Source: Tubulanus polymorphus (lineage: Eukaryota; Nemertea; Palaeonemertea; Tubulaniformes; Tubulanidae). Taken from it: a stretch of DNA of 64,000 bases. The stretch's first letter is position 1. Each line of letters opens with the position of its first letter. The notes below the pieces were generated by a model that was not told the DNA's origin, did no database searches, and saw nothing but the letters and a program-made list of their open reading frames with translations. The position numbers and the translations under genes were made by a program. The stretch covers positions 8,753,450 through 8,817,449 of the forward strand of contig NC_134026.1 in the NCBI RefSeq assembly GCF_964204645.1, written 5' to 3'. Positions 29,801-32,800 of this stretch are shown in pieces.

Positions 29801-32800
29801 TTAACGTTTTCGATATTGTCTTCAATGTTTTAAAAAGGTTTTCCTCGGAACAAATTTCATGCATTTCCTGAAAGCTTTGTCGCGAGCATTGGCAAACAAA
29901 AATAGCTTGCCAATATCTGATAATAATTCTGTCTCATTCATGAAAGGCATTCGTTATTTTATCCAGGTGACCAGGTAAGCAGACGCGGCGCCTTAACTGG
30001 TGGTTACTACGACAGTCGCAAATCACGTCTCGAACTTCAGGGAAGCAAGATGGAGCTGATCGAACAAGTCGAACGACATGAGAAAGAATTCGCTGAACAC
30101 CGGAAGAAACTTCAAGATATCCTTTTCTATCATTTATATAATGCGTGCATATTAAACTACGTGTACGTGTACGTGAGATACGTGTACCGTACTTCCTCTG
30201 CTTGGAATTTAATTTTTAATCGGCTAGATTACATTTTGTTTCTTATACCGCTAATGTTTGTTCTTAACTTGCGTACTGATTGAAGGTTCCATCAATAACC
30301 TCGTGAGCGACATGCAGAAAACTGAGACAAGAAACAGCAAATCAAAGTAAACTTAACTACTGCTTTCCTAAAATTAATCCCTTTGAGCAACGTGAATCAG
30401 ATCCCAGTACGCCGTAAAATAAGTGCAGGGTTCAGATTGATGTGAAAAAATGCATGTCTGCTTAAAAAAATTGGTGAAAATTTAAGAAATCATGAAAATG
30501 TGTGAAAAATTCTTGTAAGAAAAGTTTCTGATAATATTTTGATTACCTTTACTGTGTAGACCAGAATTGCACTAAATGTGTTTAAGTTTATGAAATTTCA
30601 CTTGGTATGGAAAAAAATATTCGAGAGTCCAATCTGACCTCTGTGAGTGACAAATCAAACAGGGGCAGGCCCTATCCACCCTCCCTAAATGTATATACCA
30701 GATTTACTATTGGATACCATGCAATATTATGTTATATATAAGTTCATTGCTCCTCAGATTTTCTATATGAATTTCCTCCACGGAATAATTCTAACATCTA
30801 AAATTACTCCTATGTCCAGAATGAATTAAATGCTGAATTAAGATTAAAGCTCTTGCGACCCTGAGAAATTAAGGGCAATCATGAAAACGAGAGGAATGCT
30901 TTCAAAAACTTGGCTGTCGTTGTTTTTCATGCAACAGTTACGCATGGGAAAAATACACTTAATCTTTCTATTCTAGAATAGCCAGCTGAAAATTTAGTAC
31001 CTTATATCCCGACCAATAAGCTGATTTTCTAGTCGCCGATTTTACCCCATAATACCCTGGATATGTTGATGACCTAAAAAATCTATGTCACTTACGCCTC
31101 AAAAGCTCCATATTATTCAGCGACCATTATTTACTACAAATAAACTACTTTGTATATACTGATGAGAGTAGATACTCTGTACCGGTGTGTACTGATATAC
31201 TGATGATAGTATTCTGTTTATGCTAGGGATGTATTTGATAAGATGCGGGGCGATCTACGCTTGATGAAAGAGGAATACGAAGCAATCGAGAAATCGAGAC
31301 CGCATAAGGTAAGATAGTTACGGAAGATAGAGTTGAGATACGGCTGGAAAGATGTCGTAATCTGTACGAGATTGAAAGATCATTTACCAGTATAAGATCA
31401 TTTTCATTGTGAAATAATCCATAAACTAAAGTAGAAATATGCATGCATAATTGTTAAAATAGATGAAGGAATGCTACTTTATGACCTAATAATCATAGGT
31501 CAAGGAAGTGGACAACTTAAAATGCATCAAGAATCTAAAGTACATGTGTATATTAGCAAATGTGTATGAAAGATTCCTGTTGTCAAAAAGATTCATAAAG
31601 ATTTGTCTATGAATTTTTGATACCATGTAGTTCAGGTTCTTCATACAAAAAATACAAGTACTTCTGCATACAAAGGAAAATAGCGAAGGCGATGGTTTTC
31701 CGCATGCCTCATTCATCGTCTCATTTTGCAGATCCTTCTTCTGCGTCGAATAAACTATTTAACCCTTCAGTGCGTCTACACCGCAGTGCGGTGTATAAAT
31801 CAGTGATAGATTTTGCTAGTACACCGCACTGCGGTGTATTGATGTAATTAGTAATTATCTCTCTTGAAAAATGGCAGCACCTGTCTAACATAGTGAAATA
31901 CTAGTAACTAACGATATACCGCGCCGCGGTGTATACGCACTATAGTGGTATTCCCGTTATTCAACACACTAGGGTGGAATTTTTTAGAATTTTCAAATTA
32001 TCTCCAGCACTATAGGGTATTAATTAGTCAGCACTGAAAGGGTTAACGATGATATCTATATTCATGATTTTTCTGACGATTGCAGGAGCGTAGTTTGGCG
32101 AGTTTGCAGGGCAGTCTCGATTCGATGAAGACCACGGCGCGGTCGCTGAATCAAGAGTTGGGCTCGGACCTCCTGTCTCAGCTGTCGATCGAGGACCAAC
32201 GAGAGGTCGACAAACTCAACGACAAAATCAAAGAATTGACGAAGGAGAATAAAGAATGCTTGAAAGAGCGAATCCGAGTAGGTTTCATTGATAGATGCTT
32301 TTCTTTTTCCGTAAGATTATTGTAGTTTTCCGGGCTGTATTCAAATTTCCTGGATGCAGCCTCCTCTGTGAATGCATTCCGAGGTTACAGAGCAAGTAAC
32401 TGGATGTAAGTGTCGGATAGACAGGGTGACCAAACATGGAATTTGATAAAACACAGGGAAAATGGTGTTTTTATTTCAATCGCATGTGAATTGTGTTTCG
32501 GCAGAACTTAACAATTTTACAATCTTCACTTCATATGGGCCTAGTGAATTTTAAATTCCCCAAAAAAATATATTAGCTGAAAGTGGGAATATTTTCTTGG
32601 CTAGCCTTCTACTTGGGTCTGTCAAGATAACAACTCTTATCTTTCCTACTGTCGTTCATAAAACAGAGTCCCTACGGGTCCTTGACTCCTTGAAAACTAC
32701 TTCTAAGGCAGAAATGTTATTCAAGGTCCTTGAATATAGTTAGAGCAACATGCCCAAAAGTCCTTGAAAGCTTTTAGAAATTAGCGATTAGAAAATTTTG

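Follow-up and report, generated by a model that had tools for sequence, protein, structure and literature searches.

The SMC3 gene of Tubulanus polymorphus very probably carries a U12-type (minor) AT-AC intron at 30117-30276, a reading on which the donor, the branch site, the end pair and the evidence for the flanking exons agree. All positions refer to the window, by which we mean the whole 64-kb stretch of DNA that was analysed (G000:C2:8753450-8817449, from a genome of 267.8 Mb in 77 contigs), and the features discussed here are collected in Table 1. Around the intron the sequence runs ...CTTCAAG/ATATCCTTTTCT...GTTCTTAACTTGCGTAC/TGATTGAAGG... (slashes at the proposed splice junctions), so that the stretch of 160 nt beginning with AT and ending with AC, which the first-pass annotation had placed between two SMC3 exons and assigned to the U12 class, reads exactly as it was described. 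The same annotation took its host to be an animal, and this holds as well, since Wnt-domain exons are abundant in the genome (39 matches).

Table 1. Features of the Tubulanus SMC3 gene and its candidate minor intron (window positions), with the U6atac matches found in the genome
Feature	Position	Strand	Basis
SMC3 gene as resolved by homology (lacking the first few codons and the stop codon)	20840..37386	+	spliced alignment, tblastn
SMC3 coding exon, upstream	29967..30116	+	spliced alignment to human SMC3; PDB match
Probable U12-type AT-AC intron, 160 nt, phase 1	30117..30276	+	motifs, frame, spliced alignment
Predicted 5' splice site ATATCCTTTT	30117..30126	+	U12-type donor match; weakest U1 pairing
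Candidate branch site GTTCTTAAC	30260..30268	+	7 of 9 positions as in TTCCTTAAC; pairs at 7 with U12
Predicted 3' splice site AC	30275..30276	+	sequence, open-join scan, homology scores
SMC3 coding exon, downstream	30277..30346	+	PDB match; spliced alignment
TGA ending the frame upon intron retention	30281..30283	+	reading frame
Possible second 3' end at AG (AT-AG), frame kept, with three codons fewer in the product	30284..30285	+	score 170 vs 181
U6atac matches	G000:C8:14138292, C6:5269837, C8:15260197		Rfam search

The host gene was delimited by homology to human SMC3, whose sequence served as the tblastn query and was matched, with gaps, from residue 6 to residue 1217. A spliced aligner written for this analysis and guided by the same protein divides the gene by about 28 introns, namely 27 that were resolved and a first one that was forced and is left out of the 27, the first exon (about five codons) being unplaced. 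Of these resolved introns, 26 have GT-AG ends, a proportion that is partly a matter of construction because the aligner offers just GT-AG, GC-AG and AT-AC ends, and the sole exception is 30117-30276, number 18 in the list, flanked by the GT-AG introns 29537-29966 and 30347-31226. The exon upstream of it opens with base 2 of the codon that matches G655 of the human protein and closes with the first base of a split codon. When the two flanking exons are joined, they align to residues 656-728 of human SMC3 (PDB 6wg3_B, E 2.8e-10), and each of the five PDB entries that they match is SMC3. The join 30116/30277 gives one residue fewer than human SMC3 and places the split codon at about human residue 706, in phase 1.

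Some other features of the window may be recorded here. A near-palindrome of 20 nt resembling TACACCGCAGTGCGGTGTAT occurs three times at 31777-31934, inside another SMC3 intron (31309-32085), the later copies having 95% and 80% identity to the first. Upstream of SMC3 and on the opposite strand there is an open reading frame with a match to Endonuclease V (17895-18098, minus strand; PF04493, E 5.9e-6), and a 5S rRNA match of 50.9 bits, exceeding the Rfam cut-off, lies on the plus strand at 16255-16358.

The consensus of U12-type donors is RTATCCTTT and that of U12-type branch sites is TTCCTTAAC; introns of this type are without a distinct polypyrimidine tract. The donor at 30117 is a full match, and the donor sequence ATATCCTTT occurs once per strand within the window. 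The candidate branch-point A is at 30266 or 30267, 9-10 nt before the end of the intron, and the fraction of pyrimidines preceding that end (0.71) falls within the spread found for the other SMC3 introns (0.53-1.00). How often such motifs might come together by chance was gauged in two ways. When the window was dinucleotide-shuffled 200 times, a loose version of the donor-branch-end motif, with a range of 40-800 nt, was met at a mean of 0.79 per 64 kb over both strands, and 100 of the shuffles contained one or more, so the loose triple by itself is not rare at this scale; the real window has a further match of this kind on its minus strand (10552-9770). The joint occurrence of the motifs where the gene needs a junction is rare: of 300,000 stretches of 280 nt simulated from the dinucleotide content of the SMC3 gene region, 12 had donor, branch site and end pair together at the required position.

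It had also been claimed in the first-pass annotation that the exons join in frame only if AT-AC ends are used. The AT-AC join is open, as claimed, but the restriction is too strong because other joins are open too: a scan that took in donors from 30044, acceptors short of 30312 and intron lengths of 50 nt or more found that the joined frame is left open by 6 GT-AG, 5 GC-AG, 13 AT-AG and 19 AT-AC pairs. Homology to human SMC3 is loose in this part of the protein, which is coiled coil, and with the end letters ignored 30117-30276 (score 181) takes rank 41 of the 7,154 open joins. If GT-AG, GC-AG, AT-AC and AT-AG are the only ends admitted, a single join scores higher, the one that uses donor 30141 (score 187), and the acceptor AC at 30276 is common to these two best canonical-ended joins. 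The aligner's totals are 3346 with AT-AC allowed, 3338 with AT-AC under an 8-point handicap and 3321 with GT/GC-AG only; in the first of these runs its acceptor is the AC at 30276, but the donor paired with it is 30141 rather than 30117. Homology alone favours donor 30141 (ATGCGTGCA) slightly over 30117 for the same acceptor, and 30117 was chosen because it fully matches the U12-type donor and 30141 resembles no donor class known to us. With donor motif and homology combined, the alternative joins that were scored are less well supported, among them 30147-30285 (169), the highest-ranked with GC-AG ends.

It could also be that this donor and branch site, both of U12 type, are used with the AG at 30285, in place of the AC or for a minority of the product, making this an AT-AG minor intron. 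That end lies 18-19 nt past the branch A, is in frame, and has a precedent in A-type minor introns, among which the final letters vary (PMC8280824). We nevertheless regard it as very unlikely, for it scores lower than the AC end (Table 1), AT-AG is described as disfavoured (PMC3584512), and the AC at 30276 follows the branch site sooner than the AG does. There is far less to be said for a U2-type GT-AG intron, part of the 160-nt stretch then being coding. Among the six GT-AG joins with an open frame the most likely would be 30189-30285, which is the aligner's pick, at a loss of 25 points, when AT-AC is forbidden, but it scores 162 for homology (rank 1166 of the 7,154) and needs two gaps (7 and 13 residues) to align with the human protein, its donor GTACTTCC is without the usual match to U1, and a full U12-type donor at 30117 would be left unexplained, so that its probability seems to us negligible. 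Gene prediction limited to GT-AG introns would misplace the exon boundary here.

The preferred reading, an AT-AC minor intron ending at 30276, calls for a minor spliceosome, which according to the first-pass annotation this animal has kept. The genome bears this out with all four of the minor-specific snRNAs, with two protein-family matches and with a second AT-AC minor intron that is described below. Genes for all four were found above the Rfam cut-offs: U12 (111.8 bits), U11 (98.1), U4atac (73) and U6atac, which has two strong matches and a weak one (96.5, 93.5 and 40.5 bits). In the aligned copies of U11, U12 and two of U6atac, the segments that pair with donor or branch site are intact (UAAAAGGGC at the start of U11, GUAAGGAA in U12 and AAAAGGAGAG in U6atac). 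The protein families are the U11-48K-type zinc finger (PF05253), with two matches in this genome and matches also in 1 of 14 control genomes, and the CENATAC family (PF14968), with one exon. The donor at 30117 can pair at seven positions with U11 and likewise with U6atac, as the branch site can with the U12 of the same genome. With U1 the donor pairs more weakly than any other in the list of 28 SMC3 donors (the forced first intron included), at -0.9 kcal/mol as against -3.2 to -13.8 for the other 27; the energy of pairing with U11 (-5.6) does not separate this donor from the other SMC3 donors. AT-AC introns that are removed by the major spliceosome do exist in sodium channel genes, but these have G at +5 (PMC2831892) where the donor at 30117 has C, within ATATCCTTT, and this donor has almost no pairing with U1, which makes such a mode of removal exceedingly improbable for the SMC3 intron.

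The second AT-AC minor intron is predicted in a gene like that for gamma-tubulin complex component 2 (GCP2-like; L008:1500-1608, at G000:C1 near 23325811), where the join is in frame and the product matches GCP2 in the PDB (E 2e-24). The two introns share the donor ATATCCTTT and differ in host gene and in branch site, which is an exact TTCCTTAAC in the GCP2-like intron, with the AC end 10 nt past the second branch A, and agrees at 7 of 9 positions in the SMC3 intron. The genome-wide search with an exact pattern for short minor introns gave 7 matches, and 7 in the backward control, so there is no enrichment at that pattern setting; when the flanks of the 7 matches were viewed by eye, the GCP2-like locus had a clear coding join and the other six showed none. 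Open stretches lie beside the motif at L007 (downstream) and L012 (upstream). In a PHB2-like gene (G000:C7 near 16773932, L015), alignment with AT-AC at equal cost gave five GT-AG introns and zero AT-AC introns over a stretch of 232 residues, which may not include the position shared by human and fly; PHB2 is listed with a U12-type intron common to those two species (PMC2831892, table).

Splicing of the SMC3 intron would be expected to begin with the binding of U11 to ATATCCTTT at the donor and of U12 to GTTCTTAAC, with an A (30266 or 30267) bulging out as the presumed branch point. U6atac would then take over the donor from U11, and excision between G30116 and T30277 would restore the SMC3 frame. 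Were the intron not removed, translation would end at 30281-30283 and about the last 500 residues would be lost. Because a retained intron meets this stop, it is possible that minor splicing is rate-limiting for SMC3 output, although that suggestion comes from inference only.

Human SMC3 offers the closest parallel. It holds a minor intron that is retained in Roifman syndrome, which involves RNU4ATAC variants; affected samples retained it at 31.9% and unaffected ones at 2.1%, three methods put the correctly spliced isoform at 0.64, 0.85 and 0.48 of the control level, and retention is predicted to lead to nonsense-mediated decay (PMC4667643). A strong brake in the human gene is disfavoured because retention is so low in unaffected people, and the idea that minor splicing generally limits output has been questioned (PMC8280824). 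It seems to us unlikely that chromosome-segregation genes such as SMC3 and the GCP2-like gene keep A-type (AT-AC) introns across animals as a shared output brake dependent on CENATAC and U6atac, with the SMC3 intron selected as a control point.

The portions of the literature consulted state neither the exact position of the human minor intron nor its subtype, and published variants allow the positions to be compared indirectly. In human SMC3, c.1942 belongs to exon 18 (PMC8515141), c.1964-1 is a splice acceptor (PMC10776406, where the gene is printed as SMC3A), and both c.1964 (PMC7549606, table) and c.2111 (PMC8515141, Table 2) belong to exon 19. The boundary at c.1964 coincides exactly with the Tubulanus intron 29537-29966 (residue 655, phase 1), the one that precedes 30117-30276. 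The latter maps to about c.2116/2117, just past c.2111; this placement is compatible with a position common to it and to the human minor intron, which may well be shared.

Both the class of minor introns and the presence of one in human SMC3 are already known, and AT-AC introns make up 24% of human minor introns (PMC8280824); the intron described here adds one further well-supported AT-AC minor intron, in a cohesin gene of an animal and thus in an essential gene. It is like U12-type AT-AC introns generally in its donor, its branch site, its AC end and in not being in phase 0. It is unlike them in that the branch site agrees at 7 of 9 positions and stands slightly close to the 3' end, where the optimum for the distance from the branch A is 11-13 nt (PMC3584512), so that the epithet "textbook", which the first-pass annotation had given to the whole intron, suits its donor and is slightly generous for its branch site and the spacing. 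With the human SMC3 intron it shares the host gene and the minor class, and the decay predicted to follow retention in human SMC3 (PMC4667643) has its counterpart in Tubulanus SMC3 in the early stop that a retained intron would bring into frame.
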